Below, piece by piece: positions 2,557-39,027 of a DNA stretch of 39,667 nucleotides. The stretch is from positions 1,565-41,231 of the forward strand of contig QEVJ01000046.1 of the NCBI GenBank assembly GCA_003576845.1, in the 5' to 3' direction. Under the pieces are notes generated by a model. The model worked only from the letters and a program-made list of their open reading frames with translations. It was not told the origin of the DNA and ran no database searches. How positions within the stretch are numbered: the stretch's first letter is position 1; every line of letters begins with the position of its first letter. Origin of the DNA: Planctomycetota bacterium. Its GTDB lineage: Bacteria > Planctomycetota > Planctomycetia > Pirellulales > PLA5. The translations under genes were made by a program, and so were the position numbers.

Positions 2557-3165
2557 AAAAATCTCGGGCGAGTGGGGCCGCCTGGCTCGCGCGGCGCCGC
2601 AAAGCCGCGGCCCGGCGCGAGTAGGTACTACTTTTCATTTCGCGCCAGGCCCGCCCCGCGGGAACAGCCGATAATATGGGCACAGTTGGTTGCCCGCGCG
2701 CGAGTTTCCGTTTCGACCCGTGTTTTCCCGGCCATTTCGCGCGTCGCCGGCGAAGCGGCCGCGCGATCGCGCCCGGCGCATCGCGCCGCGTTTCGTCCGC
2801 GCCGACTTGCAACCGCCGCGGCTCGCCGCCCGCGCGGTCCGACTTTCGCCCGAAAGCTGCAAACTTTCGGTACGCGCCTTCGCGGCCCGCGCCGTGGAAT
2901 TTCTGCGCCCCGCAAAAACCCGTTGCCCGCCAACGGCTTCGGTCGCGATCCGGCCCGCATTTCCGAGGAAATGGCGGACCGTCTGGTAAGGTGAAAGATG
3001 CGAAATGTCCACGGCCCACACGCGGCCGCGCGGTGTCTTCATCCGCCGCGCGGCCGTCGCCGTGAACTTTCGCCGTTCGGTGGTTGGACCCCATCGGGCG
3101 CATTTCGCACAGAGAATTCGAGGCCCAACATTTCCGCCCCGCCGCAACTCCGCGCCGCGCGGCCG
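2557..3165. other. Long G+C-rich intergenic region
   Basis: About 600 bases with overlapping open frames on both strands whose translations are Arg/Ala/Pro-rich and motif-free. I do not support a gene here. It ends in a heptamer array running into the tape-measure start. Confidence 0.5.
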
Positions 3166-3200
3166 CTGACCCCCGACCCCTGAACCCCGGCCCCCAACCC
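3166..3200 (+). repeat. Five C-rich heptamers abutting a start codon
   Basis: CTGACCC, CCGACCC, CTGAACC, CCGGCCC, CCAACCC in perfect 7-base phase, the last ending at the base before ATG 3201. Similar arrays lie at 6117-6144 (ending at ATG 6145) and 35001-35035 (one base before ATG 35037). No purine-rich ribosome site lies between the array and the start. Confidence 0.85.
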
Positions 3201-4883
3201 ATGTCCGCTTCCGCCATCCGCGCCGGCCGCGCCTTCGTGGAACTGTTCACGAAAGACGACGAACTGCGCAAGGGCCTCAGCCGCGCCCAGACAATGATCG
3301 CCGGCTTCGCCAAACGGGTCGACGCCGTGGGCACGAAGCTGTTGCAACTCGGCACGTTCGCCGCGGCCCCGTTCGCATTCGCGATCAAAGCCGCCAGCGA
3401 TCTCGAAGAGACGATGAACAAGTTCAACGTCGTCTTCGGCCGATCGGCCGACGTGGTGAAGGAATGGAGCGACACGTTCGCCGGCGAGATTGGCCGCTCG
3501 AAACAGCAAATCGCCGACTTCCTCGCGTCGAGTGCGGACTTGTTCAAGCCGCTCGGCTTCGCCGTCGCGGACGCGACGGAAATGTCGAAGCAAGTCACGA
3601 AGCTCGCGATCGACCTGGCCAGTTTCAATAACAAAGCCGACGACGAACCGCTCCGCGACTTGCACGCGGCCCTCACCGGATCGGGCGAGGTGATGAAGAA
3701 ATACGGCGTCATCGTCAGCGAAGCGGCCGTCAAGCAAGAGCTGCTCAACCGTGCGATTGATCCCAAGAACGCCACGGAAATGGAAAAAGTGATGGCCCGG
3801 TGGAACATCATCTTGGCCGGCACCAAGGATGCCCAAGGCGACGCCGCGCGGAGTGCCGAAAGCTTCGCAAACAAGGCCAAGACCTTGCAAGGCGAGCTCT
3901 CGAATACGGCGGCCGCGATTGGCAAAGAATTGTTGCCCGTCGTGACGCCGTTGCTCGCACAAGTTACGGCCGCCGTGAAACAGTTCGCCGACTGGGCCGC
4001 CGTCAACAAAGAGACCGTGCAGGTCGTCGCGGAGCTTACGGCCGGGGCGATCGCTTTGGCGGCCGCCCTGAAACTCGTTGCCGCCGCGCTTTCCGCAGTC
4101 GCCGTGGCGCAAAAAGGGTTCAATTTGACGATCCTCGCGTCGCGGGCGCTGGGGCCGTGGGCGGCGGTCGGCGCGGCGATTGCCGGCGTCGCGACCTACG
4201 TCGCCGAATTGGTCGACCAGACAAACAAATGGAATCGCGCCCTCGATACGCTGCGAAAGAAAAACAAGGGCTGGGACGACTTTTCGGCGCACATGGATCG
4301 GGTGCTCGCCGAGCAAGCCGCCGAACGCGAACGCCGCCGCGCCGCCCGGGCGGCCCAAGCTGCGGACGACAAAGCTCGCGGGGGCATCCCGAAAGATGAA
4401 TGGGAACGGCGGAAGGCGGGCGGCCCGGATGCTTTTTCGAGAAACCGCGAGCTCGAACGGCAATGGGGCGCCCAGCGCGGGTTCACGCCGGACGACATTG
4501 CCGGCCAGCAAGCGACCGTCCGCGACTTGGAACGGCGACAGAAACAGATGGAACAGGAGAAGGAGCGCGACCTGGAGCAGGGCCTGTTGCGCGCCGTCGA
4601 AGAGTGGCTGGCCGCCGAGAAAGAGCGGGCGGACATACTCGATGAACAGAGGCGCGAAACGCAGCGGCTGCTCGAGCGCAACGCCACGACGCTGGTTGCC
4701 GGCAGCGAAGAGGCGGCCAAGGTGCTTTTGGACCATTTCAACCCGCAGAAGAACCCGGCCCTCGACGTCGCCGAAAAGCAACTCGCCGTCGCCGAGCGCC
4801 AGGACCAAAAACTCGGCGCGATCGAACGCAAGCTCGATGGCCCCGAGCGCGAATGGCAAGGCATCCCGATTACGGCCCTATGA
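3201..4883 (+). CDS. Phage tail tape-measure protein (element 1)
   Basis: 560 residues. It opens with SASAIRAGRAFVELF, shared almost exactly with the tape measure of element 2 at 35037, which argues for a common phage origin. Residues about 60-235 resemble phage tape-measure cores (ASDLEETMNKFNVVFG; later FANKAKTLQGELSNTAAAIG). A hydrophobic Ala-rich stretch at about 285-340 could be membrane-active. The C-terminal 190 residues are charged coiled coil. Tape measures set tail length and line the tail lumen; at 560 residues this one is shorter than the 746-residue homologue. Starting at ATG 3201 excludes an unlikely Pro/Arg-rich leader. The stop overlaps the next start. Confidence 0.85.
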   Translation: MSASAIRAGRAFVELFTKDDELRKGLSRAQTMIAGFAKRVDAVGTKLLQLGTFAAAPFAFAIKAASDLEETMNKFNVVFGRSADVVKEWSDTFAGEIGRSKQQIADFLASSADLFKPLGFAVADATEMSKQVTKLAIDLASFNNKADDEPLRDLHAALTGSGEVMKKYGVIVSEAAVKQELLNRAIDPKNATEMEKVMARWNIILAGTKDAQGDAARSAESFANKAKTLQGELSNTAAAIGKELLPVVTPLLAQVTAAVKQFADWAAVNKETVQVVAELTAGAIALAAALKLVAAALSAVAVAQKGFNLTILASRALGPWAAVGAAIAGVATYVAELVDQTNKWNRALDTLRKKNKGWDDFSAHMDRVLAEQAAERERRRAARAAQAADDKARGGIPKDEWERRKAGGPDAFSRNRELERQWGAQRGFTPDDIAGQQATVRDLERRQKQMEQEKERDLEQGLLRAVEEWLAAEKERADILDEQRRETQRLLERNATTLVAGSEEAAKVLLDHFNPQKNPALDVAEKQLAVAERQDQKLGAIERKLDGPEREWQGIPITAL

Positions 4884-6018: not shown

Positions 6019-6116
6019 CGCGGCCGCCAGCCGTTTGAGCGCGAAGAGGCCGGCGGCCGGCGGCGCGGTTTCGTACCCTCGTCCGCGTCCGCCGGTCGCC
6101 GTGCTTTGAGTTTTTT

Positions 6117-6144
6117 CCCCGACCCCCGAACCACGGTCCCTGCC
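6117..6144 (+). repeat. Four C-rich heptamers abutting a start codon
   Basis: CCCCGAC, CCCCGAA, CCACGGT, CCCTGCC in 7-base phase, ending at the base before ATG 6145. Same arrangement as at 3166-3200. Confidence 0.75.
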
Positions 6145-6976: not shown

Positions 6977-7078
6977 GCCGCGCGTTTCCCGGGAAGCGCG
7001 GGCGAACGCACGAAACGGAACAGCGTGTTCCGGTCAGTGGACGCCGCGCGTTTCCCGGGAAGCGCGGGCGAACGCACG
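6977..7078. repeat. Pair of 36-bp direct repeats with parS-like palindromes
   Basis: Identical 36-bp copies at 6977-7012 and 7043-7078. Each contains the near-palindrome CGCGTTTCCCGGGAAGCGCG (6981-7000 and 7047-7066). Between them lies a further inverted repeat, CGGAACA-GCG-TGTTCCG (7016-7032). The core GTTTCCCGGGAA also forms a perfect 18-bp palindrome at 9956-9973 inside the ParB-like gene. The layout resembles a partition or regulatory site. Confidence 0.7.
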
Positions 7079-7086
7079 CAATTCGC

Positions 7087-7720: not shown

Positions 7721-7836
7721 AGGCCATAGGCCCACTAACTTCTGCGCGGACTCCAAGCTGCGATCCGGATTGCCGGGGAGCAAGGGCCGCCGGGCTTTTT
7801 CGGAAGCCTTGAGGGGAGCTAGTGGGCCTATGGCCT
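7721..7836. repeat. 17-bp perfect inverted repeat upstream of the recombinase
   Basis: AGGCCATAGGCCCACTA (7721-7737) is exactly inverted at 7820-7836, with 82 bases between. It lies in the gap between the minus-strand zinc-ribbon gene and the plus-strand recombinase gene. It could be a recombination site, an operator pair or a large RNA hairpin. Confidence 0.75.
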
Positions 7837-7884
7837 TTTGCTTGCGCCGCGACCCGTTCGCGGCCGGCAGATTGGATGGCAGTC

Positions 7885-9852
7885 ATGGCCACCGTCACTC
7901 TTGCCGCGCGTGAACCCGACCCGCGCGACGTTCCGCTGCTCGAATTCGTGGAGCGCGTCTTCATCCCGCAGCGGCTTGGGAGCCGCTCGCAACGGTATGC
8001 GGATCAATACCGCGGCGCAACCACCTGGCTCGCGCGGCTCCTGGACCGCGTGCCCGTGCTGGACGACTTGCGGAAGCAAGTTCTCTGGCAGGTTCAATCG
8101 TTCATCGTGCAACAGGGCTTCAGCACGTGGCGGGCGCTGAACGTCAAGAAGCAACTCTCCGCCATCGCCCGCTGTGCCTGGCGGTTGGGCTGGCTCCCCG
8201 CGTGGGAACCGACCCGGAACATCCGCCACGTCGACCCGCCGGCGACGTTCCTGGACGCACCGCCGGCCGATGGCACGCTCGCCGCATGTTATCGCGACGT
8301 CGTGCTCCCGAAGCTCGCGGCCAGGCAGGCCGAACGCGGACGGAGGCGGTATAGCGTCTCGAATCGCGCCAACTCGATCGCCGCCGCCGTCGAAGCGTTC
8401 GACCGAATGCTCGGCAGGTACGGCGCGCCGGAAGATCTGACACCCGACAACGAAGCGGCCTTCCGCGACCGGATGGTCTCTCGCGGCCTATCGGAGGCGA
8501 CTTTTTACAACTATGCCAGCGACCTCAGGCTCGTGGCCCGCGTGCTCGATCCGGCGCTGCCCGATCGCCGCCGACACGTCGCACCGCTCCCGCCGCCGGC
8601 GGAAGGCACGGTCCGCCACTTTTGCGAGCACGTGTATAAGCCGACGCAGCTCATCGGGTCCGCGGACCTGGTGCTTTCGGATTACAGCCGCTTGATGCGG
8701 TGGCTGCATGGGTATGCGGGGCGCGACGTGCGGCTGGACGAGCTATCCGCCGTCTTCGTGGGAGGCTTCCTGCATTGGCTGTTGGCTTCGGGCACCCGCA
8801 ACGCCGCGACGGTGAACAAGTATCGCGGGATGCTGATGGCCGTGTGGCGTAGCGCGGCCGAACGGCATCTCGCGCCGCCAGTGCAACGAGTTCGCAAGCT
8901 CAAACAGGCGTTCGACGCGCCCGATTCACTCTCCCGCGACGAACTGCAACGGCTCATCGAAGCGCCGGCGGCGATCGCCTGGCGGAAAACGATCGCCGGC
9001 GTCTGCCCGATCGCCTGGTGGCGAGCCTACTTCCTGGTCGCGTTCTATACGGGGATGCGCCGCCGCAGTTTGCTCTCGCTGCGGACCGCCGACGTGAACC
9101 TCGAAACGGGCGTGGTCGACGCGGCCGGCGAGACCTTCAAGACCGGCAAGGGCCAGCGCTATATCTTGCCGCCCGAGGCGATCGTCGCCGTCGCGGAAAT
9201 CATCCAGCCGCCGCGGGAACTGCTGTTCGCCCGGCCGGACGACAGGCAGAACTTCCACAAAGAACTGGGCAAGATTTTCGCCGCGGCCGACATCCGGCCA
9301 TCGACCCGGCGGAGCATGAACAAGGGCCATCGGATTCGCCGCACGATCGCCACGGAGATTGCCGCCGAGCACGGCGTCGAAGCCGCGGCGCGGCTGCTCG
9401 GCAACACGCCCGATGTTTGCCGCAAGCACTACATCGACCCGACCCGCTCGGGTTACAGCACGGTCGCCGCGTCGCTCCCGCCGCTTTTGGCCACGCCGCC
9501 AGCGACGCCGGCGGAGCAACTCTTCGACGATCCGCGGCGGGCGATCGACGAAGCCCACAAGCTGTATCGCGCGGGGCACCTGGCCGCGGCCGCGGTCACG
9601 GCCCGCGTCGCGCTCCACGCGCACCTGCAAACGCTCGCCCGCCGGCATCGCCTGCACGCGCCGAACATCGGGCAACTGGCGACGGCCCTCTCGGCGAACG
9701 AAGTCATCGGCCGCGGCACGCGCGACGATATTCACCGCGTCCTCAAAACGGCGAACCGGGCAGCCCACGGCCGGATCGTCAGCCCCGTCGACGTGATTGA
9801 CTTGGTGCACGTCGTCCAAGCGATCGTCGCCGGCGACGCCGGTGGGCAGTGA
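7885..9852 (+). CDS. Large tyrosine recombinase with extra C-terminal helical domain
   Basis: 655 residues from ATG 7885 (ATG 7876 and 7822 are also in frame). Catalytic residues of the tyrosine recombinase family are all visible: Arg392 (YTGMRRRSLLSL), Lys422 (KTGKGQRY), His482 and Arg485 (GHRIRRT) and Tyr516 (CRKHYIDP). Two SAM-like arm/core-binding segments precede the catalytic domain (around 20-110 and 245-330). Beyond Tyr516 about 110 residues form a helical domain (AHKLYRAGHLAAAAVTARVA, later KTANRAAHG) that resembles DUF4145/HEPN-type helical domains but lacks the RX4-6H motif. It is one of two tyrosine recombinases in element 1; a role in multimer resolution or a second mobility step is possible. 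Confidence 0.85.
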   Translation: MATVTLAAREPDPRDVPLLEFVERVFIPQRLGSRSQRYADQYRGATTWLARLLDRVPVLDDLRKQVLWQVQSFIVQQGFSTWRALNVKKQLSAIARCAWRLGWLPAWEPTRNIRHVDPPATFLDAPPADGTLAACYRDVVLPKLAARQAERGRRRYSVSNRANSIAAAVEAFDRMLGRYGAPEDLTPDNEAAFRDRMVSRGLSEATFYNYASDLRLVARVLDPALPDRRRHVAPLPPPAEGTVRHFCEHVYKPTQLIGSADLVLSDYSRLMRWLHGYAGRDVRLDELSAVFVGGFLHWLLASGTRNAATVNKYRGMLMAVWRSAAERHLAPPVQRVRKLKQAFDAPDSLSRDELQRLIEAPAAIAWRKTIAGVCPIAWWRAYFLVAFYTGMRRRSLLSLRTADVNLETGVVDAAGETFKTGKGQRYILPPEAIVAVAEIIQPPRELLFARPDDRQNFHKELGKIFAAADIRPSTRRSMNKGHRIRRTIATEIAAEHGVEAAARLLGNTPDVCRKHYIDPTRSGYSTVAASLPPLLATPPATPAEQLFDDPRRAIDEAHKLYRAGHLAAAAVTARVALHAHLQTLARRHRLHAPNIGQLATALSANEVIGRGTRDDIHRVLKTANRAAHGRIVSPVDVIDLVHVVQAIVAGDAGGQ

Positions 9853-9915: not shown

Positions 9916-10944
9916 ATGATGGTCACAGCCAACCCCAAAGCCGCCAAGTCCGCATCCGTTTCCCGGGAAACGGCGCTGGTCGAAGTGCCCCTCGACAAGC
10001 TCGACCCCGCGCCGTTCAACGCCCGGGCCGACGCGGCTGCGGGCGTCGATGAGCTGGTGCCCAGCGTCCGCGAGCTCGGCTTGTTGCAACCGATGCTCTG
10101 TCGCCCGAAGCCCGGCGGCCGTTACGAACTGGTCGCCGGCGAGCGGCGTTATTGCGCCGCCAAAGCCGCGGGCCTCTCCGCGGCGCCGGCCGTCGTCCGC
10201 GAACTGAGCGACGCGGAAGCGTTGATCGCGGGCCTGGCGGAGAATCTTGCGCGGCGAAACCTGAACCCGATCGAACGTGCCCGCGGCCTGGATCGGCTCG
10301 TCGCGCCGATCGACGCCGGCGGCGCGGGCCTCACGACGAAGGCGGCGGGAAAGCTGTTTGGGCGATCGCAAGAATGGTGCTCGAATCACACGCGGCTGTT
10401 GCGGCTGCCGGAAATCTGGCAACAACGCCTGGCCGCCGGCGAAGTCACGGAACGCATGGCCCGTTCGCTCGTGCCGTTCGTCGACATGCCCGACGTGCTG
10501 GCCGCCATCGAACGCGACCGCGAGCAAAACCCGTGGGCTTGGAGAACGTCGACCGATTTCGAGCGGTCCGCCAAACGGATCGCCGTCGGCGAAATCCGCC
10601 CGCCGCAATCCTCGACCCCTGACCCCCGGCCCCTGACCCCTGCCGTCAAGCCGCCCCGCGCCGCGCCGTCGACGTTCGCCCGCGCCACCCCAGCCCCCAG
10701 TCCCCAGTCCCCAGCCCCGGCCGCTCGCGATTACCGCCTGACCGCGGACCAAGCCGCCGAGCGCGACAGCGACGAAGCCTTCGTGCCGATCCGCAGCGGT
10801 TCAACGTTGGAAGCCGACGCCGAGAGCGATCACGACTTGGATACGATCCTCTGGCTCGTGCCCCGGCTCCGCGAAGCGTGGCAGTTGGACGAAGTAGCGC
10901 AAGCGATCGCCAAGCACCGCGCAAAGCTCGCGGCCGCAAAATGA
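9916..10944 (+). CDS. ParB/RepB/Spo0J-family DNA-binding protein
   Basis: 342 residues; start ATG 9916 (or 9919), AAAGGTG five bases upstream. N-terminal ParB domain: VEVPLDKLDPAPFNAR, GLLQPMLCRP, GERR at 75-78 (CTP-binding ParB motif) and ENLARRNLNPIE at 109-120. A helix-turn-helix follows at about 135-165. The rest is a Pro-rich linker and a charged tail. ParB proteins bind parS palindromes and spread on DNA; no ParA gene is seen nearby. The palindrome at 9956-9973 lies within this gene. Pro-rich segments are encoded by two heptamer arrays (10612-10643 and 10688-10724). Confidence 0.85.
   Translation: MMVTANPKAAKSASVSRETALVEVPLDKLDPAPFNARADAAAGVDELVPSVRELGLLQPMLCRPKPGGRYELVAGERRYCAAKAAGLSAAPAVVRELSDAEALIAGLAENLARRNLNPIERARGLDRLVAPIDAGGAGLTTKAAGKLFGRSQEWCSNHTRLLRLPEIWQQRLAAGEVTERMARSLVPFVDMPDVLAAIERDREQNPWAWRTSTDFERSAKRIAVGEIRPPQSSTPDPRPLTPAVKPPRAAPSTFARATPAPSPQSPAPAARDYRLTADQAAERDSDEAFVPIRSGSTLEADAESDHDLDTILWLVPRLREAWQLDEVAQAIAKHRAKLAAAK
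9956..9973. promoter_or_regulatory. parS-like perfect palindrome
   Basis: CCGTTTCCCGGGAAACGG, perfect over 18 bp, inside the 5' end of the ParB-like gene. The canonical bacterial parS is TGTTTCACGTGAAACA; the outer GTTTC/GAAAC are the same and the centre differs (CCGG for ACGT). B. subtilis also has a parS inside its spo0J gene. Binding is inferred. Confidence 0.5.
10612..10724 (+). repeat. Two in-gene C-rich heptamer arrays
   Basis: CTGACCC/CCGGCCC/CTGACCC units at about 10612-10643 and CCCCAGC/CCCCAGT/CCCCAGT/CCCCAGC units at 10688-10724, within the ParB-like gene. They encode the Pro-rich linkers (SSTPDPRPLTPAV and PAPSPQSPAPAA). Confidence 0.75.
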
Positions 10945-12730: not shown

Positions 12731-13951
12731 ATGCCCTCCCAAGGAAGCGGAAGCCACCTACGCCTGGCCGTGCCGAGCACGCCACGCGCTCCCAGCGAAA
12801 TCGCTCGCGACGAAGCGGCCGAAATCGCCCGCCAAGCACACGTGCTGGCGCTGGAGAAGTGCCGCGAGCTCGAATCGGCGGAAGTGCTGATGCGCGACAA
12901 TGGGTTCACGCTGGCCGACTGTGCGGCCTGGCGATGGGGCTTCGTCCGGCAGGGCCTGACCGTTCGCCAGACCGAATTGCCGCTCAGGCAGTTCGCCCGC
13001 GCGCACAGCAACGGCGACAAGTCGAACGCCCGCAAGCTGCTGAAGCGGCTCGAATCGCGCGGGATCGCGAGTTACGACGGCGAGAGCGGCACGGCCACGT
13101 TTTTTTGGCCGGCCGACGTGTTCGCCGCGCTGCGGGCCGGACCGTCCACCGACGTCGTATACCCGCCGGCCCAAGACGTCTTCGACTTCGCGGCGCCCGT
13201 TCACCCCGAGGCCGTCGCCGATGAGGCGGGGTATCCAGTACCACGGCTCGTACCACAGGAAGCGCCGGAGTCGCCCGCCGACGCCCAAGAGAGCGCTGGG
13301 GAGTGGTATTCCACACCCCGATCCGTACCACACCCCGCGCCGCCGGCGCCTGTGACGCCGTTGACGCCGCAAGCCCAGGAGTTCATCGCAAGTGCAGGTG
13401 GCGAAAAGCGTTTCGATCGAATCCTCAATGCGCCCAACCGCTCCGTGGTACGAAACGAGGTACGCAGTACCACACCCCGCACTACTAACAACGTTTGTGT
13501 GGAAGAGTCTCTCAAAGACTCTTCCACACAAACGAACGAACAACCGCCATGCGGCGGCGGCCCGGGGAAGGGGCCGCCGCCGATGGCGGACGAACGACAG
13601 ACCGCAAGCGGCGAGCACACCGTCATCCGCCGCGCGGAGGAAATCTACGCGGCGATCGGCGACCCGACGCTCGTGTTTTGGGCCGCGATCGCGATGGCTG
13701 TGCAAGAGCGCGACGGCAAGCGCGCCGAAGTCGCGGCCGCGATCAACGCCGCGCGGCATGAATGCTGTTTTGACGCCCCGACGAAACGATTCCGCACGGC
13801 GAAGCTCGAATGGTGGTCTGCTGCGCGGGCCAAAGGCACCCTGGACAAGCGGTTCGGCGTCACGTGGAACGCGGCTTGGTCGGGCAACCGCGACTCAAAC
13901 AGCGCGGAGCGTTCGCGCGGGCATCGTCGCCCGCGCTCGCCTCCGAAGTGA
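12731..13951 (+). CDS. Putative replication protein with winged helix and internal DNA repeats
   Basis: 406 residues; ATG 12731 has GGAAAG 5 bases upstream. The N-terminal domain (about 15-135) contains a winged-helix-like segment (FARAHSNGDKSNARKLLKRL, then SRGIASYD). A Pro-rich linker covers about 140-225, and the C-terminal domain (about 295-385) is helical and Trp-rich (IYAAIGDPTLVFWAAIAMAV). No helicase or primase motifs. The linker region carries repeated GTACCAC-type sites and a long hairpin (13238-13534), an arrangement like lambda O, where the origin lies inside the initiator gene. The initiator role is inferred from this layout and not from a known motif. Confidence 0.6.
   Translation: MPSQGSGSHLRLAVPSTPRAPSEIARDEAAEIARQAHVLALEKCRELESAEVLMRDNGFTLADCAAWRWGFVRQGLTVRQTELPLRQFARAHSNGDKSNARKLLKRLESRGIASYDGESGTATFFWPADVFAALRAGPSTDVVYPPAQDVFDFAAPVHPEAVADEAGYPVPRLVPQEAPESPADAQESAGEWYSTPRSVPHPAPPAPVTPLTPQAQEFIASAGGEKRFDRILNAPNRSVVRNEVRSTTPRTTNNVCVEESLKDSSTQTNEQPPCGGGPGKGPPPMADERQTASGEHTVIRRAEEIYAAIGDPTLVFWAAIAMAVQERDGKRAEVAAAINAARHECCFDAPTKRFRTAKLEWWSAARAKGTLDKRFGVTWNAAWSGNRDSNSAERSRGHRRPRSPPK
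13238..13480. other. Iteron-like sites inside the putative replication gene
   Basis: GTACCAC at 13238 and 13250; GTGGTATTCCACACCCCG at 13303; the 14-mer GTACCACACCCCGC at 13325-13338 and again at 13467-13480; inverted GTGGTAC at 13445-13451. The two 14-mers are read in different codon frames (VPHP against STTPR), so protein sequence does not explain their identity. Confidence 0.55.
13492..13534. other. Perfect 19-bp-stem hairpin inside a coding sequence
   Basis: CGTTTGTGTGGAAGAGTCT (13492-13510), loop CTCAA, then the exact inverse (13516-13534). The A+T content is higher than in the surroundings. It lies just right of the iteron-like sites. It could serve as part of an origin, a primer or nick site, or a premature terminator. 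Confidence 0.85.
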
Positions 13952-14116: not shown

Positions 14117-14476
14117 ATGAACGGCCAAGCAAAACCACAACCGGCGTCGTTCGACCGTTCGCTCGCGCGAATGGTCGAAGACACGCTCGGCGAATCGAGC
14201 CACGTCGGCTGGCGAATCCGCCACACTCCCACCGGCGACGGCCGCCAGGCGCTCGTTTCGGTTTGCGGCCGCTTCCGCGTGCTGGCCGAGAAAAGCCGCC
14301 ACGCCCGCCACGGCGTCATGTTCCGCGCCGAGCGGCGAATCGAAAGCCCGCCCGGCAACTGGACGTGGCGACACCTTTCGAGCCACCGCACCGAAGCCGC
14401 GGCCAAAGCCGCCTGCGAACGCGCCGCGCGACCCCCGAGCAACAAACGCAAACCCAGCAGCCGCCCGGCCCCGTAG
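14117..14476 (+). CDS. Hypothetical basic protein
   Basis: 119 residues from ATG 14117. His/Arg-rich, with a beta-type centre (VGWRIRHTP, QALVSVCGRFRVLAEK) and a basic tail (PPSNKRKPSSRPAP). No recognised family. Third positions are strongly G/C, supporting a real gene. Confidence 0.6.
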   Translation: MNGQAKPQPASFDRSLARMVEDTLGESSHVGWRIRHTPTGDGRQALVSVCGRFRVLAEKSRHARHGVMFRAERRIESPPGNWTWRHLSSHRTEAAAKAACERAARPPSNKRKPSSRPAP

Positions 14477-15123: not shown

Positions 15124-15241
15124 CCGCTCCCACCTGGCCGGCATCGTGGTAGGATGCCACCTCGAAAGCCTTTGCTGGCTGCGCGGGCGACGGTCTTGCA
15201 CCCGTCGCTCGCGTGGCCGGCGTGCAAGAAAGGTCGAAGCC

Positions 15242-16822
15242 ATGTCCGTGTTCAAAATCAAGTTCAAGTGCCGCCGCACGGGCGAAACGAAGCTTTCGAG
15301 CCGCTACTACGGCAAAGCGGCCGACGCCGACGGCAAGGTGAGACGGCACAAACTCGCCGAGACGCGGCGGGCGAGCGAAGACCAACTCGCGGACCTCAAG
15401 TATCAGGCCAAGCTCGCCCGCTCGGCGAAAGACAACCCGATCGAAGCCGCGGCCCGGCGTCCACTGACCGAACACGTCATCGACTTCCGCCGCTATCTCG
15501 AATCGAAGCGCGTCACATCCGGCCACGTCGCCGGCTCGATCGGTCGGCTCGTGAAGCTTCTCGATGGGTGCGGCTTCCGGCTCATCGGCGACATTGCGCC
15601 GCAGGCGGTACGCGACTGGCTCAAGGCGCAGCTCGATCGCGGTTGGATCGACCCGCTGCCGGGAACCGTCGACGTTAGGCCGCGGCCCTTCGGTCTGGGC
15701 GCGGCGAATCACTATCTCACCGCGGCGAAGGCGTTTTGCCGCTGGGCGTACAATGACCACCGCCTGGCCCGCAACCCGCTCGCCGGGATCGCGAAGTTCA
15801 ATGAGCAAGAGGATCGGCGCCGGTCGCGGCGGGCGATGCTCGCCGATGAGTTGGAATGGTTGGTGAGCACCACGAAGGCCAGCGTAGACGACCGCAAGGC
15901 GCTGGCCGGGACGGATCGGGCGATGATCTATCAGGTTGCCGCGTTCACCGGTTTGCGGGCGAACGAAGTCGCCAGCTTGACGCCGGCCAGCTTCGACTTG
16001 GGCGCCGTGCGGCCGTACCTCATCGTCGAATCGACCATCTCGAAACGCCGGCGTCAGGACGTGCTCCCGATCGCCGACGGCCTGGCCGCGAGCCTTCGCG
16101 AGTTCCTCGACGCCCGCGAGTTGCTGCCGATCGAACGCCAAGCGCGGCTCTGGCCGGGCAAATGGTATCGGCGGGCCGCCGAGATTTTGCGCGACGACAT
16201 GGCGCAGGCCCGCGCGGGGTGGATCGAAGCCGCTCCGGAAGCGGACCGCGGCGAGCGTGAGGCGAGCGATTTCCTGTTGCCAGAGGACGCGAGCGGCGAC
16301 GTGCTGGACTTTCACGCGCTCCGCCACACGTTTTGCACGAACCTGGCCGCGTCGAACGCATCGCCCAAGATGCTCATGGAATTGGCCCGGCATTCGACAC
16401 CCGCGCTGACCTTGGGCCGCTATGCCCACATGCGATTGAGCGACGCCCACAACGCCGTCAACGCCCTGCCGACGCTCGGCGACCCGCGGCAACGCGAGGC
16501 CCTGAAGGCCACGGGAACGGACGGCAGAGCGGCCCAGGAGGCGCGCGAGAATCGGCCCCCGGCGACTAGACCAAAACTAGACCAAAACGGCGCCGAAACG
16601 GCCGAAAAACCCCACCTTCGCTGCACCGCGACTAGACCACGGCGGAAGCGTGAAAGTCCACAAATGTCCACGGACGCCGGCGAGCAAACCGGCGAGAATG
16701 CCGGGAAAGATGGTGAAGCGTGTCCACAAAAATCCTCAATAGTCAGTAGCCGAGGCGGGGATCGAACCCGCACGGGGATTAACTCCCCACAGGATTTTAA
16801 GTCCTGTGCGCCGTTCGCGTAA
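15242..16822 (+). CDS. int: Tyrosine integrase reading through its attachment site
   Basis: 526 residues; ATG 15242 with GAAAGG upstream is preferred to the longer frame. Catalytic set: Arg239 (FTGLRANEVASL), Lys268 (ISKRRRQ), His358 and Arg361 (FHALRHTF), His384 (LARHST), Tyr394 (LGRYAHM). An N-terminal arm-binding region (FKIKFKCRRTG..LSSRYYGKA) and a SAM-like core-binding domain (about 75-180) precede the catalytic domain. The low-complexity tail from about 410 covers the candidate arm sites and then the 55-bp core (SRGGDRTRTGINSPQDFK), stopping 21 bases beyond it. The gene lies at the end of element 1, next to its attachment site, so it is the likely enzyme for integration. Confidence 0.92.
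   Translation: MSVFKIKFKCRRTGETKLSSRYYGKAADADGKVRRHKLAETRRASEDQLADLKYQAKLARSAKDNPIEAAARRPLTEHVIDFRRYLESKRVTSGHVAGSIGRLVKLLDGCGFRLIGDIAPQAVRDWLKAQLDRGWIDPLPGTVDVRPRPFGLGAANHYLTAAKAFCRWAYNDHRLARNPLAGIAKFNEQEDRRRSRRAMLADELEWLVSTTKASVDDRKALAGTDRAMIYQVAAFTGLRANEVASLTPASFDLGAVRPYLIVESTISKRRRQDVLPIADGLAASLREFLDARELLPIERQARLWPGKWYRRAAEILRDDMAQARAGWIEAAPEADRGEREASDFLLPEDASGDVLDFHALRHTFCTNLAASNASPKMLMELARHSTPALTLGRYAHMRLSDAHNAVNALPTLGDPRQREALKATGTDGRAAQEARENRPPATRPKLDQNGAETAEKPHLRCTATRPRRKRESPQMSTDAGEQTGENAGKDGEACPQKSSIVSSRGGDRTRTGINSPQDFKSCAPFA
16565..16639 (+). other. Candidate integrase arm-type sites, right end
   Basis: ACTAGACCA at 16565-16573, 16576-16584 (11 bp apart, one helical turn) and 16631-16639, same orientation as the copy at 1621-1629. 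(T)GTCCAC words follow at 16656, 16665 and 16721. All lie within 185 bp of the right core. Confidence 0.5.
16747..16801 (-). repeat. Right attachment core: 3' fragment of tRNA-Leu(UAA)
   Basis: Second copy of the 55-bp core. Here the anticodon stem is complete (CAGGA-CTTAAAA-TCCTG, minus strand), with the tRNA match reaching about 16810, but the D arm and 5' acceptor strand are missing. It is therefore not a working tRNA in this window. Confidence 0.85.
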
Positions 16823-23930: not shown

Positions 23931-24512
23931 TCAAGGGACTTCAGGCGGATGGGGCAACTTCTCAGAATCTCGTCCGGCTCGGGATTCGCCATCTTTCTCG
24001 ACCTTGGTTCGACTGCCCTTACTAGATTGCGTCGCAGCACATCTCTTCGCCTTCCTCATATAAACGAGCGGTTCTCCGTAGTCGGCATGGTTCACGTGCT
24101 CGGGCTGCTCGTGCTGAATATCCACCCAATTCCCAAGCTTGCTGGACCACATCCCATTAGGCATCAATTTGGCAGCGTGCTGCCACTCGTGGCCAGATCC
24201 CGTCTGAACTCCGTAGAGGACAACCTTATCGAAAGACTGGTCGTACTCCAGGGGAGCTTCATCGCAGATCTCGAATCCTTTGGTCTGATACGCCGCAATC
24301 AGCGATGTGAGGCATCCAGTTCTAGGCACGCCGTCTGGCCAGTACCCACGAAGGAGATCCCAAGGGCGGTGTTTTTCGCCGACGGCCCAGGCGATGCAAT
24401 TGTAACGTGGCGTTTGCTTACTCGTGAGACGCCATTTAGTTCCGCGCAAGCCATCAAACTCCAACTCTACTTCGCTGCGGATTCGTTGTTGCTCGCGGCG
24501 TCGCGCTTTCAT
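23931..24512 (-). CDS. DUF7689-type protein
   Basis: 193 residues. The pattern YNCIAWAVGEKHRPWD, GYWPDGVPRTG, CLTSLIAAYQTKGFEICD, FDKVVLYG, HAAKLMPNGMWSSKLGNWVD, IQHEQPEHV, YGEPLVYMRKAKR fits the DUF7689 family, whose biochemical function I do not know; a Cys/His-containing papain-like fold is conceivable. Its ATG overlaps the stop of the upstream methylase gene by 4 bases, so the two are co-translated. Members of this family commonly lie beside genes for a small HPxYxxI domain, which here is fused to the methylase. Confidence 0.75.
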   Translation of the reverse strand: MKARRREQQRIRSEVELEFDGLRGTKWRLTSKQTPRYNCIAWAVGEKHRPWDLLRGYWPDGVPRTGCLTSLIAAYQTKGFEICDEAPLEYDQSFDKVVLYGVQTGSGHEWQHAAKLMPNGMWSSKLGNWVDIQHEQPEHVNHADYGEPLVYMRKAKRCAATQSSKGSRTKVEKDGESRAGRDSEKLPHPPEVP

Positions 24513-27241
24513 ATCTCGTATCCGTTATCTCGCCCCCAATTGAACCAAGCGATCGAAACTTGCTTTGCGGACATTTGCGCGGGATTAGCTGGCGAACTCC
24601 CAGTCAACTCGCGCAATGCAGTGTCCCAGTGTACTTCCCCGTCGCGAATTTCGCGCAGCAAATAGGGTATGATGGAAGTGCCTAGATCGACAATTCTCTT
24701 GTAAAGCGGATGGGCGATTCTCCTGTCTTCACGCGACATAATTAGCGTCGCTTCCTCCCATTGTTGGGAAAGAAGCTTGAATTCTCGATAAAGCCGCTCA
24801 GACGCCAAGTCTGGGCGGTTAATTGCTTTGCCGTTTCGATCAAGCCCATAGGCTCTCATTACGAGCGACTCATGCTCGCCAGCATCAACAGACTTTCCAG
24901 TCGCGAGTCGTCGCCCAATCGCAGCCAGTGAATTGCGAAGTGCGTTATCCGAGAGCGATGGCAATGGCACCCGCTCAACGAAATGTCGCCGTAGAGTGAA
25001 TTGCCCGCCGCGAATCTGTGGGCAGTATGCGGGCAGAATTCTCTCAAACAGCGAACTGTTCAAGATTGCTAGGTATGCAAGCAGCCGTGAAGTGTGAGGT
25101 TTGCCCCGCTTCCAGCACCAACCGAAGCCTTGCACAACGGCGTAGACGCCCAATGGGTCTATTGCGAAGTCTCCAGCCTTGCCAAACTCTTTTGAGACGA
25201 TTCGCGGAACTCTTTTCGCCAGCCAAGTCGCAACCGGTCGACTAACCTCCCACCAATTCCGATAGAGACTTTTTCGGTCACTCAGTTCGCGTTTCGCTGG
25301 GCGTAAACGCTCTTCAAAAAAAACTGGCAAAGTAGTCCTGACCTCCTGCTCGGTCTTCAAGAGGAGGCCTCCAGACTCGTCATACGGATAGAAAATGTAG
25401 CCCGACGGTTGAATGATTCCATTTTCAATCCGATCGGCAATTGGCCGAAACAACCTCTGCTCTCTACGGCGGGTGCAAAAGCGACGAAATTCACCTTCAT
25501 CAAGGATAAAGACTGGTTTGTTACCAACGCGCACGCCCAGTTTTGGAACAAAGAAATCGGCAACCGTTGTCAGCGTGTTGTGAAGAATCTCTCGAATGAA
25601 TGCTGCACTAGCCGCCGATTGTGGGGACCAATTCTCGTTCGCCAGCTCTAATTGTTCGATGTTGCGTAACTCAAACCCGCTACCGACTATCTCCGTAGTC
25701 CATTCTGTTGAGCGCAAGAGTCGAATTGCCTGTTCAGCACTCTTGTCGTCGGCGATAACCACTCTGATAGGCGTCGTAGAGTCGGCTGAACGTGAAATCA
25801 CCAGGAACGCTGGTTGGACTGTCGCATCGAAGTACCCGAAATGAAGTTGACCGATCAAATGAATTCGGAACTTTCCACTTCGCGAGAAGTATCGCCGGAT
25901 CAATTCGGCGGATCTTGAGTCGAGAAATGAGGACGGCATTACAGTCGCCAGCACGCCGCCAGGAGCTAACGACTCCGCTGCCTTGAAGATAAATGCAAGC
26001 GCAATGTCGGGACGGTCTGAATACGCTGGACCGAGGGTGGATTTGACAAGTTGCCTATCGCCCGGGGGGAGCTCATTCCATGCAACAAATGGCGGATTCA
26101 TTAAAACGATATTTGGCTTCCCCCAGTTCTTAATCGCGAGCGAATCATGCTCGACAATCCGAAGTGAGTACCGAGAATCTTCGGATTCGGAAATTGCGTA
26201 CCGAACGGGGTGTTCGGCCATCGTCACGGCGATTTTCGATTTATCAATTCCAACGAACTGGACAGAAGTCGGTGGCTCGGACGCGATCAACTCTCGAAAT
26301 GCTTCAATCAAAAAGACCCCTGATCCACATGCTGGGTCCAAGATCGAAAAAGGCCCTTCATTCGGCCACTGAACGAACTTAAGTGCGACCTCGATTAGCG
26401 CCCGCGCGAGCGACTCTGGAGTATGATGGATGTAGCTTGGCGCAGCATCACGTCGACCACCATGATCGACCACCATGAACTCTGGAAACAGTTCTCGTTG
26501 GGATGAGATAATTCCAGGCGATCGCAGCTCTTTGTGTGCCTCTTGGTACAGAGTGCCACTTGCGTGGCGCACTAAGAGATCGGCGTCTAATAAGTATCCA
26601 GAGCTGCCGCCGTCGCGCAGCAAGCTGACAAGTTCACCTAACGGGAAATCGCGAAGGTTATCGCTGACATTAGCTTCCGAAATCCACGGCGCTCCAACAC
26701 GACGAAGTGCTCGTGCCGCTTGGAAAAGAGTTAGGCTTGTGTCATCGCCGGTAACGGTTGCAACCCAGGCAATTAGGATATTGAAAGAAAACGCCACATC
26801 GACAGAGTTGCCGCCGCGTTTTTCTACCGCGGCCCTAACTGCGCCAAAAGTTTCCAGCGCTCGATCGATTACTGTGTTTTCAGACGGACTTGGCGTCTGC
26901 TGAAACTGGTCGAAAATGGCCGCAACATCATCTTCGGTTTCGACCCGTTGTTGACTTTCTAAGTCAGGGGCATCCCAACGGCGAAGCGTCGCCATCGAGC
27001 CTTGGTTGAGTTCCACTGACCAGCGAACATTCGCTGACCATGCGCGCTGATTGGCCGTCGCGCGCGGCACTCTGGATTCGGAATCGACAATTGACAAAGC
27101 GAAGCTGCCGTCGCGCCCGTCGAGCATGATGGCATGTGTGCCAGACTCGTTACGCGCGCGCGCGGCACCAAACATGGGCACAGAAACTAAGCCCAAGGCA
27201 TGCGCCCAGCATTCTGGTAATCGTGGATTCCAAGCAGACAT
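24509..27241 (-). CDS. N6-adenine DNA methylase-like protein fused to an HPxYxxI-type domain
   Basis: About 910 residues; ATG 27241 is used, GTG 27250 adds three residues. SAM-binding motif DPACGSGVFL near 302-311 and catalytic NPPF near 382-385 mark an N6-adenine methylase of the HsdM/type IIG kind. The following 400 residues look like a target-recognition region. I see no PD-(D/E)xK nuclease motif. The last 90 residues (WEEATLIMSREDRRIAHPLY, KRIVDLGTSIIPYLLREI, VHWDTALRELTG, AWFNWGRDNGY) match a small domain usually encoded as a separate gene next to DUF7689. G+C is visibly lower than in flanking phage genes. Lies between terminase and portal on the opposite strand. Confidence 0.8.
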   Translation of the reverse strand: MSAWNPRLPECWAHALGLVSVPMFGAARARNESGTHAIMLDGRDGSFALSIVDSESRVPRATANQRAWSANVRWSVELNQGSMATLRRWDAPDLESQQRVETEDDVAAIFDQFQQTPSPSENTVIDRALETFGAVRAAVEKRGGNSVDVAFSFNILIAWVATVTGDDTSLTLFQAARALRRVGAPWISEANVSDNLRDFPLGELVSLLRDGGSSGYLLDADLLVRHASGTLYQEAHKELRSPGIISSQRELFPEFMVVDHGGRRDAAPSYIHHTPESLARALIEVALKFVQWPNEGPFSILDPACGSGVFLIEAFRELIASEPPTSVQFVGIDKSKIAVTMAEHPVRYAISESEDSRYSLRIVEHDSLAIKNWGKPNIVLMNPPFVAWNELPPGDRQLVKSTLGPAYSDRPDIALAFIFKAAESLAPGGVLATVMPSSFLDSRSAELIRRYFSRSGKFRIHLIGQLHFGYFDATVQPAFLVISRSADSTTPIRVVIADDKSAEQAIRLLRSTEWTTEIVGSGFELRNIEQLELANENWSPQSAASAAFIREILHNTLTTVADFFVPKLGVRVGNKPVFILDEGEFRRFCTRRREQRLFRPIADRIENGIIQPSGYIFYPYDESGGLLLKTEQEVRTTLPVFFEERLRPAKRELSDRKSLYRNWWEVSRPVATWLAKRVPRIVSKEFGKAGDFAIDPLGVYAVVQGFGWCWKRGKPHTSRLLAYLAILNSSLFERILPAYCPQIRGGQFTLRRHFVERVPLPSLSDNALRNSLAAIGRRLATGKSVDAGEHESLVMRAYGLDRNGKAINRPDLASERLYREFKLLSQQWEEATLIMSREDRRIAHPLYKRIVDLGTSIIPYLLREIRDGEVHWDTALRELTGSSPANPAQMSAKQVSIAWFNWGRDNGYEI

Positions 27242-27352
27242 GGAAGACACCGCAGAGGGGTATCTTTGGAATTATCCACGAATCCAAGCGGTACTACAAT
27301 AGCGGTCATTTGGCGGCGGGACAACCTTCGCGGCCATCGCCAGCGCGACCGG

Positions 27353-34744: not shown

Positions 34745-35004
34745 TTCTCTCGCTGGCCGGTCGCCTCGGCATCGATCCCGGTCCGTGGACGCTGCGAGAC
34801 CTGCTCGTGATGGACGAGGCCCGACAGACCGACCGCTGGAATCATACCGCCATGACGTGTGCCCTGATGGCGAACATCCACCGCGATAAGAAGAAACGCT
34901 CAAAACCGTTCCTACCCGACGATTTTCATCCGCTAGCCAAACCGAAGCCGAACATCGTCGTCGGCATCGAAGCCCTCAAAGATTTCGTTCCTGCCAGTCC
35001 CTGA
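34741..35004 (+). CDS. Tail assembly chaperone, second ORF (T-like)
   Basis: 87 residues if started at TTG 34741, which overlaps the previous stop. TLRDLLVMDEARQTDRWNHT, then ALMANIHRDKKKRSKPFLPD is typical of the C-terminal part of frameshifted chaperones. The frame is -1 relative to the first ORF and is open well upstream of 34741, so a programmed -1 shift is possible; no perfect slippery heptamer was found (closest GAG-GGG-GAC). Confidence 0.65.
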   Translation: MILSLAGRLGIDPGPWTLRDLLVMDEARQTDRWNHTAMTCALMANIHRDKKKRSKPFLPDDFHPLAKPKPNIVVGIEALKDFVPASP

Positions 35005-35036
35005 TCCGCGACCCCTGACCCCCGATCCCTGTTCTC
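35001..35036 (+). repeat. C-rich heptamers before the element 2 tape measure
   Basis: CTGATCC, GCGACCC, CTGACCC, CCGATCC, CTGTTCT in register, ending one base before ATG 35037; the first unit contains the previous stop codon. Same kind of array as in element 1 at 3166-3200. Confidence 0.8.
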
Positions 35037-37277
35037 ATGCCTGCATCCGCTTCCGCCATCCGTGCCGGTCGTGCGTTCGTCGAACTATTCGCCGACGACT
35101 CGCAGATGGTCCGCGTGCTGAAATCGGCCGAGAAGCGGCTCAAGAACTTCGGCGCGGCGATTCGCAACGTCGGCTTGAGCCTGGCCGGCATCGGCAGCGC
35201 CATTACCGCACCGCTCGCGCTCGCGGCCAAGACGTTCTCCGACACAGGCGATGTGTTCGACAAGATGAGCCAGCGAACGGGCTTGGCCGTCGAGTCGCTC
35301 TCGCAACTGGCGTTCGTGTTCTCGCAATCGGGTTCGAGCCTCGAAGATTTTGAGAAGGGGTTTCGCAAGCTCCAGCAGAACATGGGCGAGGCGGTCGCCG
35401 GCTCGAAGACAGCGCAGGATGCCTTCGCCGCCATCGGCGTCGATTTTCAGAAACTGCTGGCTCTCTCGCCGGAAGAGCAGTTCCTCGCCGTCGCCGAAGC
35501 GATCTCCCGAATCAAAGACCCCGCGTTGCAAACGTCCGCCGCGATGGACCTGCTCGGTCGCGGTGGTGCGGCGCTGTTGCCAACGATGCAAATGGGCGCG
35601 AGCGGCATCCGCGAGATGATGCAGCAGGCTGACCAACTAGGCCTCACCATGTCCGGCCAGACGGCGAAGAGCGCCGCGGCATTGAACGACGCGCTCGATG
35701 CCCTCAACCGGGTTTGGGAAGTGATCGTGCTGACGGTCGGCTCGGCGGTTGCGCCGGCGATCACCCAATTCTCCACGCAAGCCACAGCGGTCGCTGCCCA
35801 GGTGCGGGCGTGGATCGCCGATAACCAGCAACTCGTCACGACACTCGGCGCAGTCGGCCTGGGACTGACTGCCGCGGGCACGGCACTGGCCGGTGTCGGC
35901 GTGTCCGTCTCGGCGCTCGGTTCTGGCATCGGTCTCGTCGCCAAGGCGTTCACCAGTTTCAATGTGCTGCTCACCGGTGCTGGCGCACTGCTCGGCGTGT
36001 TGACTTCTCCGATCGGTCTGCTCGTTGCCGGGCTGGCGGCGCTTGCGGCGGCGACCGTCGACTGGTCGGGCGCGTGGGCGTCGATCAAAGACTTCGGCGC
36101 GAACGCCCTCGAAACGCTTGCCGGCGGATTCTCGGCCGTGCAGGCCGCGGCGCAACCTGTGTTCGCATCGATCGCGGCCTACGCCGCCGCCCTCTGGCAG
36201 CGTTTGCAACCCGTCGTCCAACTCGTCACCGGCGCGCTTACTTCGGCGTGGCAATCGGTAGCCGACGCCGCCACGGCCGTGTTCGGCTGGATCGGCCAGC
36301 AAATCGACGCCAACCGCGCCGCCATTCAGGAATGGGGCACGCTATTCGTCGAAGTCTGGCGAAACGCAGCCGAAGGCGTGATCGCCTTGTGGGGCGGCAT
36401 CGTCGACGCCGCCAGCACCGCACTCGGCTGGATCAACGAACAGTGGCAGAGCCTGTTCGGGCAGACCTTCACGCAAAGTCTCTCCACCGCGTTCGGCTGG
36501 TTCGCTGGGTTCGTCCGCGACGTGCTCGACATGCTCAGCCTGCTGACGACGAACTGGTCGCTCACTTGGGAACTGGCCAAGAACGCGGCGGGCACGGCGC
36601 TGTTCTTCGTCCTCGACCTCGTCCCCAAAACTGCCCACGCAATCATCGGTGTGATTCGCGGCGCTGCGGATGCGATCGGCGAACTGATCGCGGCCATCGC
36701 CACGGGCGACTTCGATGCCATCGGTGCGCGGATGGCAACGCTGTTCGCCGAAGCGTTCCAGGACCAGATGTCGCAAGAGACGCCGTTCACGGGCATCCTC
36801 GAAGATTTCAAACGCGAACGGGACGCGCTGATCGCCCAAATGCAGGCCGAGCGTGACCGCGTGCGCGCCGATCGGGCTGCGCAGGATGCCGCCTCGCGAC
36901 CAGCGACCGCGCCCGGCGTCGGCGCACCTCCGACACTACCCGGCTTGCCGCCGCCCATTCCACAACCGCCCGCCGGCGACGAGCAGTCGGCCAAGCTGCA
37001 AGAGATCATCAGCCAACTCGACACACTCAACGGCGCAACCCGCGACGTGGAAGCGGCCGCCAAACGATCGGCGAACGACGCCGCTGATTTACTGGCGATC
37101 GGCACGCGCGAAGCAGCCGAAGCGATCTTGCGTCACGAAGCAGGTCGCGACCGCGACCGGCAAGACCGTGTGCAGCGCGACCAACTGGCCGAACAGCGCA
37201 AAGCCACCCGTGCCCTCGAAGACATCGACCGCAGTCTCCGCAACACCGCCACGCTCGCCGTAGCGAACCTCGCCTAA
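35037..37277 (+). CDS. Phage tail tape-measure protein (element 2)
   Basis: 746 residues. The N-terminus ASASAIRAGRAFVELFADDS is almost the same as in the element 1 homologue. Then SLAGIGSAITAPLALAAKTF, FDKMSQRTGLAVESLSQLAF and EEQFLAVAEAISRIKDP form a tape-measure core. Hydrophobic Ala/Gly/Leu segments at about 265-345 could be membrane segments used in DNA injection. The C-terminal 170 residues are charged coiled coil with a Pro-rich spacer. Its length sets the tail length. Confidence 0.9.
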   Translation: MPASASAIRAGRAFVELFADDSQMVRVLKSAEKRLKNFGAAIRNVGLSLAGIGSAITAPLALAAKTFSDTGDVFDKMSQRTGLAVESLSQLAFVFSQSGSSLEDFEKGFRKLQQNMGEAVAGSKTAQDAFAAIGVDFQKLLALSPEEQFLAVAEAISRIKDPALQTSAAMDLLGRGGAALLPTMQMGASGIREMMQQADQLGLTMSGQTAKSAAALNDALDALNRVWEVIVLTVGSAVAPAITQFSTQATAVAAQVRAWIADNQQLVTTLGAVGLGLTAAGTALAGVGVSVSALGSGIGLVAKAFTSFNVLLTGAGALLGVLTSPIGLLVAGLAALAAATVDWSGAWASIKDFGANALETLAGGFSAVQAAAQPVFASIAAYAAALWQRLQPVVQLVTGALTSAWQSVADAATAVFGWIGQQIDANRAAIQEWGTLFVEVWRNAAEGVIALWGGIVDAASTALGWINEQWQSLFGQTFTQSLSTAFGWFAGFVRDVLDMLSLLTTNWSLTWELAKNAAGTALFFVLDLVPKTAHAIIGVIRGAADAIGELIAAIATGDFDAIGARMATLFAEAFQDQMSQETPFTGILEDFKRERDALIAQMQAERDRVRADRAAQDAASRPATAPGVGAPPTLPGLPPPIPQPPAGDEQSAKLQEIISQLDTLNGATRDVEAAAKRSANDAADLLAIGTREAAEAILRHEAGRDRDRQDRVQRDQLAEQRKATRALEDIDRSLRNTATLAVANLA

Positions 37278-38718: not shown

Positions 38719-39027
38719 ATGCTTACGATTATCGAACGCGACACCACGAACTCCGTCGATGTCTTTCGCGTGGCCGTCGGCACCACCGCGGCGGCGATCA
38801 CCAGCTCGCCGTATGCGTGTAAGCGCGGTGTCGGTGTGAAAGCATCACCGTCGAACGCCGGGGTGATCTACGTCGGCCCGTCTGATGTGACCGCCGGTGC
38901 GACGCCGGCCACGGACGGCTGGCCGCTCGCTGCTGGCGAAGAGTTGTTCTTGCCGCTCGACGATCCGCGGGTCGTGTATGCCATTGCGTCGGTGGCGAAC
39001 CAACAGTTGTACGTGGTACTCGTCTAA
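38719..39027 (+). CDS. Small phage structural hypothetical protein
   Basis: 102 residues; AAGGTG 5 bases before ATG 38719. Pattern KASPSNAGVIYVGPSDVTAG, then AGEELFLPLDDPRVVYAIAS is typical of small phage proteins with a beta-sandwich, often next to tail-tip or decoration genes. Exact role unknown. Confidence 0.7.
   Translation: MLTIIERDTTNSVDVFRVAVGTTAAAITSSPYACKRGVGVKASPSNAGVIYVGPSDVTAGATPATDGWPLAAGEELFLPLDDPRVVYAIASVANQQLYVVLV

Follow-up and report, generated by a model that had tools for sequence, protein, structure and literature searches.

A putative prophage replication initiator gene carries clustered dyads and a long hairpin within the DNA of its Pro-rich linker

The stretch of DNA analysed here, termed the window (39,667 bp; bases 1565–41231 of a 41,231-base contig in a 7.05-Mb bacterial assembly), encodes phage functions (terminase, portal, capsid protease and tail tape measure) alongside integrases, an excisionase-like gene and a ParB-like gene. 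Two copies of a 55-nt direct repeat (98% identical; 1480–1534 and 16747–16801) enclose 15.3 kb that contains the open reading frame (ORF) under study; an integrase is encoded immediately inward of the right copy. This pair of repeats looks like the attachment sites of an element of satellite size that carries an integrase, an excisionase-like gene and a ParB-like gene of its own; to its right the phage structural genes go on. The letters of the repeat resemble what we take to be the 3′ part of a leucine tRNA; ARAGORN reported no complete leucine tRNA at the repeat, and a search of the contig for a terminal repeat found none. Several other features of the window were recorded along the way. Two different tyrosine integrases (7822–9852, with a weak C-terminal DUF4145 match as well, and 15188–16600) lie about 6 kb apart, and two tail tape-measure genes share 90 nt at 73% in their 5′ parts (3168–3257 and 35010–35099), which suggests that the contig contains two related phage modules. 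Five copies of a short C-rich repeat of the type CCCCTGACCCCCGNCCCCTG occur (3155–3196, 6115–6142, 10608–10635 and 35004–35031), at two places close to tape-measure starts, and a 39-nt repeat (97% identical; 6977–7015 and 7043–7081, 66 bp apart) follows just past the head-protease gene. A large minus-strand ORF (24509–27250) with DNA-methylase-like motifs by eye lies in a stretch of low GC and runs opposite to the surrounding phage genes.

The ORF at the centre of this work (Table 1) is single-copy in its genome, and its protein matched nothing in Pfam, PHROGs, NCBIfam or PDB sequences. Specifically, the whole protein had no Pfam match at E ≤ 0.1 and its C-terminal domain alone none at E ≤ 10; no primase-helicase domain was found in the Pfam, PHROGs and NCBIfam searches, and no sequence homology to known phage initiators in Pfam and PHROGs. 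Between the terminal domains lies the Pro-rich linker already described in an initial annotation of this DNA (26 of 154 residues are Pro, versus 11 of 252 in the rest of the protein). That annotation had also called the protein winged-helix-type, for which support is weak: the N-terminal domain, modelled from its single sequence (mean pLDDT 65.6, best block 83), has helices and a beta hairpin that are compatible with a winged helix, but a Pfam search with this domain alone returned HTH_IclR at E 0.31 and nothing else, and Foldseek gave no match with E ≤ 0.001 in PDB and BFVD. The best VIA match of the model was the SHARPIN LTM motif (Z 5.0, rmsd 2.9, 43 aligned); comparison with Zbeta domains gave Z 3.3, and the single replication-initiation entry noticed in the VIA list was a human OCCM chain (Z 2.5). 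Single-sequence folding of the full-length protein gave a poor model (mean pLDDT 42.9). A PHROGs scan of 19 window proteins hit no helicase, primase or initiator family, and in particular no RepA helicase, RepB′ primase or RepC, and the next ORF (14117–14476) had no family match in Pfam or PHROGs.

Table 1 Features of the proposed initiator gene and of the ParB-like gene upstream (window coordinates)
Feature	Position	Strand	Basis	Details
ParB-like gene	9916–10944			ParB_N and HTH_ParB domains; about 2 kb upstream of the ORF
ORF, proposed replication initiator with internal origin	12731–13951	+	ORF call	406 aa
N-terminal domain	12785–13174	+	single-sequence AlphaFold2	helices then beta hairpin; possible winged helix
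Site A	13228–13256			half-sites 13228–13234 (−), 13238–13244 (+), 13250–13256 (+); dyad offset 22 bp
Site B	13303–13331			half-sites 13303–13309 (−), 13325–13331 (+); offset 22 bp
Site C	13445–13473			half-sites 13445–13451 (−), 13457–13463 (−), 13467–13473 (+); outer dyad perfect 7+7
Spacer ACCCCGCACTACTAACAA	13474–13491	+		first 8 bases at the same post-dyad place in the homologue, in another reading frame
Long hairpin	13492–13534		inverted-repeat scan	19-bp perfect stem, 5-nt loop; starts 18 bp past site C
A/C-rich tail past the hairpin	13535–13546	+		(AACC)n at the corresponding place in the homologue
Second hairpin	13552–13582		inverted-repeat scan	GC-rich, 12-bp arms, 7-nt loop; in the same linker
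Conserved C-terminal domain	13616–13879	+	33% over 90 aa with the homologue, E 2e-9	residues 296–383

The DNA that codes for the linker is marked by repeats. Five of the six exact copies of GTACCAC in the window fall inside this one ORF (13238, 13250, 13325 and 13467 on the plus strand and 13445 on the minus strand), and the sixth lies at 39013, in agreement with the clustering noted initially. Also as first reported, an identical 14-mer, GTACCACACCCCGC, is read in two different frames, at codon position 0 at 13325 and at codon position 1 at 13467. The copies belong to three dyads of the form GKGGTAY-N15-GTACCAC (starting at 13228, 13303 and 13445), in all of which the half-site starts are 22 bp apart. 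The cluster begins at 13228, ten bases before the start at 13238 given initially. Sites A and C each include a third half-site and are mirror images of one another; read outward from the sequence, both follow GTGGTAC-5-GWGGTAC-3-RTACCMC, and a 32-nt inverted repeat is formed between them. Across the 7.05-Mb genome the dyad pattern has zero-mismatch places at these three positions only, with one unrelated one-mismatch place elsewhere. The three dyads with one offset, the mirror relation of A and C and this genomic uniqueness are new to the present analysis.

Past the sites stands the perfect hairpin that had been described there. It is the lowest-GC part of the gene (GC 0.42 in the 60-nt segment 13481–13540), the 14-mer of its arm has no other copy in the 7.05-Mb genome, and it alone in the window has arms longer than 12 (loop up to 12), the second hairpin being the only other one that reaches 12-bp arms. 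As a single DNA strand it is predicted to fold at −22.9 kcal/mol (z −10.6, DNA parameters). No A+T-rich unwinding region lies beside the iterons, the lowest-GC 60-nt segment being the hairpin itself, and GC skew is flat at the site, without a switch.

The sole homologue found is a 436-aa protein (L002) encoded in genome G013, which belongs to the same order as the host of the window. The two proteins are 31–33% identical in the C-terminal domain only, and their N-terminal domains have no significant similarity (BLASTP E 0.13). The L002 gene adjoins an integrase gene ending about 1.2 kb from a tRNA-Arg gene, in a prophage-type region whose terminase, capsid and methyltransferase genes fall in PHROG families common to the window; both homologues sit in prophage-type elements near integrase genes. 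In the L002 linker DNA we found two copies of AATGTCGGGGT-N10-ACCCCGACATT, another repeat with 13-bp arms, and a hairpin whose perfect 15-bp core continues in further pairs around a bulge. The four inverted repeats of this gene (arms 15, 13, 13 and 11) rank first to fourth in their 20-kb stretch, and the fifth, also with 11-bp arms, lies outside the gene. No counterpart of the second hairpin was identified in this homologue. The order of parts is common to both genes (inverted-repeat dyad, ACCCCGCA, long hairpin, A/C-rich tail, conserved C-terminal domain), while the letters of dyad and hairpin differ between them. In both genes ACCCCGCA stands at offset zero after the last dyad, in different codon frames; in a set of 20,000 random 20-mer pairs drawn from the two genes, 33 had 8 shared bases whose offsets agreed to within one base, a figure that serves as a guide only, the comparison having been picked after the sequences were seen. 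It had been proposed at the outset that homologues with the protein domains but without the repeats would speak against an origin; in the one homologue checked, the C-terminal domain and the layout are kept together, which does not refute the idea. A single homologue remains thin support for conservation of the layout.

The main rival explanation takes the hairpin to stop antisense transcription arriving from the right, as an intrinsic-type terminator or a roadblock, with the dyads as operators of a regulator and no origin at all. A terminator-like call was indeed obtained on the minus strand (13534–13492, tail TTGTTAGTAG), and GGTTGTTGTTGCGG follows the homologue's hairpin on the same antisense strand, which makes this place T-rich in both genes. 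These T stretches are, however, poor U-tracts, and a scan of the region gave 4 such sites versus 2.3 expected. A 19-bp stem also far exceeds what a terminator usually needs, and both the dyads and their place in the linker are left unexplained; we judge antisense termination unlikely. A second rival reads the dyads as a parS-like centromere that lies in this gene by chance and serves the ParB-like protein, whose ParB_N and HTH_ParB domains are encoded close upstream. Palindromic, clustered sites would suit such a role, yet the layout is kept in the G013 homologue, where no stand-alone ParB was found among the 20 proteins scanned and ParB-type matches are confined to a methyltransferase. A centromere would also leave the hairpin unexplained, and we consider this reading decidedly improbable.

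We used synonymous-codon shuffles of the gene to assess what chance alone would produce. The longest perfect arm (loop 3–12) was 19 versus a shuffle maximum of 13 (0 of 300 shuffles reached 19), and a composition-corrected clustering test of the best 7-mer counted 5 copies of GTACCAC versus 0.057 expected, with none of 1000 shuffles as strong and a clustering score that ranks first of the 190 sliding windows across the 39.7 kb. Unweighted statistics were less selective: 63 of 300 shuffles reached the observed raw count for the commonest 7-mer, 8 of 300 reached the observed equal-offset inverted pairs, and 105 of 1000 contained three similar 7-bp dyads with a common offset, any sequence and any offset being allowed. 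These unweighted repeat tests are weak because shuffles of GC-rich codons easily make such pairs, and the fixed 22-bp offset by itself is statistically not strong; statistics on equal-offset dyads were too weak to serve as main evidence. For the homologue gene, 0 of 300 shuffles matched the arm length, 0 of 300 the number of inverted repeats and 0 of 1000 the repeat arms AATGTCGGGGT, while its 7-mer clustering was unremarkable (88 of 1000). Coincidence, in which GC-rich, Pro-rich coding DNA would yield repeats and stems unaided, agrees with the unremarkable unweighted results; set against the arm lengths of both homologues, the GTACCAC clustering and the location of the longest inverted repeats of both stretches in this same gene, it is highly improbable. 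Selection on the DNA layout rather than on the protein, for which the initial annotation had argued, is well supported: the repeats stand in different frames, the shuffle tests point the same way, and the homologue has this layout in other letters. A layout that persists as letters and frames change points to a function in DNA.

Homologues were sought by protein and profile searches among relatives and in the order, phylum, class and G013 family (97, 396 (order, searched three times), 294, 4 and 297 genomes), and additionally in viral contigs, in phages and plasmids by tblastn, and in genome contigs. Samples of genomes were searched with few candidates scored in each (up to 19, falling to 4 or 5 when the longest queries were run over many genomes), so distant relatives may have escaped detection. 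Besides G000 and G013, the genome searches gave weak matches alone (E 4e-4 to 0.05), which we took as noise. All 15 weak loci of one 396-genome order search were scanned for hairpins without an arm ≥12 appearing; ORFs were inspected at 6 of them, 2 of which had no printed ORF over the match. Of the nine weak loci of another order search over 396 genomes, the one inspected (L058) carried a dihydroorotase-like ORF by eye. The 294-genome search gave 13 weak loci, 9 of them hairpin-scanned, with a 12-bp-arm hairpin at one (L033), and the 297-genome search gave 4. A 19-residue match in genome contigs (L003) yielded no hairpin on scanning. One viral-contig match to the dyad pattern (L065) fell within a tail-type gene, on an AT-rich contig that has no repeat cluster, and was taken as chance; the homologue's own dyad pattern had no match in viral contigs, and neighbouring genes used as search baits returned nothing useful. 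In another element (L047), inverted repeats at 10014–10050 and 10411–10444 (arms 12 and 11) lie outside long ORFs, near the integrase and regulator-like genes of that element.

Taken together, we consider that the gene is probably the replication initiator of a temperate phage or satellite, with its own iteron-plus-hairpin origin embedded in the DNA of the Pro-rich linker. From the repeats, their geometry and genomic rarity, the hairpin and the same part order in a diverged homologue, we infer DNA binding by the protein, melting, a role for the stem-loop, host recruitment and origin function. In the mechanism that we propose, the N-terminal domain would bind the three dyads as dimers, each dyad offering two 7-bp half-sites two helical turns apart, with A and C mirrored around B. 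The bound protein would wrap the DNA and thereby strain the hairpin segment, which is low in GC and starts 18 bp past site C; this segment might then open or extrude as a stem-loop. Host replication proteins, which the conserved C-terminal domain may recruit, could enter or prime at the single-stranded DNA so exposed. An N-terminal domain that possibly binds DNA could instead belong to a regulator whose own gene contains its autoregulatory or silencing sites, with a hairpin that acts in the mRNA, given that the hairpin is stable as a single strand too (DNA parameters). Against a regulator of this kind, the sites lie about 500–740 nt inside the gene, and a full-length frame with a conserved C-terminal domain past the hairpin indicates translation through it; we attach quite a low probability to it.

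If the initiator reading is right, gene and origin would form a compact movable replicon of about 1.2 kb from prophages, with an initiator that matches nothing in the family libraries searched and a coding linker shaped by DNA-level selection. It would also be a clean case in which to ask if origin opening can rely on a stem-loop in place of an A+T-rich tract. A further reading, which we offer tentatively and regard as possible rather than probable, is that the two genes represent a new prophage initiator family in this bacterial order, in which the in-gene origin needs a stem-loop and not an A+T-rich tract, and sites and hairpin have changed with the protein while the geometry was kept. One DNA stretch would then be held by both its reading frame and its folded shape.

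The nearest known layout is that of phage lambda, whose origin lies in the middle of the O gene with inverted-repeat iterons beside an A+T-rich region (PMC5043065, PMC7466680). The resemblance to lambda O and its lambdoid relatives, raised by the initial annotation, holds for layout: inverted-repeat sites occur mid-ORF, between two domains, in the predicted initiator gene of a temperate element. We call the arrangement lambda-like because repeats for a putative DNA-binding protein stand in the linker of an integrase-linked phage gene, beside a low-GC segment. The likeness does not extend to sequence, the protein having given no sequence or structure match to any initiator family, nor to the sites themselves, since lambda has four 19-bp iterons and this gene 7-bp half-sites at a 22-bp offset in mirrored clusters. 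Where lambda has a 40-bp A+T-rich region, a long perfect hairpin takes its place. Lambda O-type genes adjoin the helicase-loader gene P; the ORF that follows here had no family match in Pfam or PHROGs by which to recognise a helicase loader or primase. No GC-skew switch marks the site. Lambdoid iterons can themselves form hairpins, the role of which is discussed as open in PMC7466680. Stem-loops are tied to replication in other replicons as well. In the passage of PMC4234260 that deals with them, pRN1 replication needs a 100-nt stem-loop, and both pRN1 and the Bordetella phage BIP-1 associate a long stem-loop with the gene for a replication protein that includes a winged-helix domain; as described there, their loop lies downstream of the gene, iterons are absent and the proteins are primase-helicases. 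The same passage describes the RSF1010 oriV as iterons plus the stem-loops ssiA and ssiB, where primers start. There, RepC reads the iterons and the RepB′ primase reads the loops, genes of which none was recognised among the 19 window proteins scanned in PHROGs, and the passage (PMC4234260) does not place these sites in the initiator gene. What the RSF1010 oriV, so described, has in common with the present locus is the adjacency of its parts, with putative initiator repeats adjoining a stem-loop.
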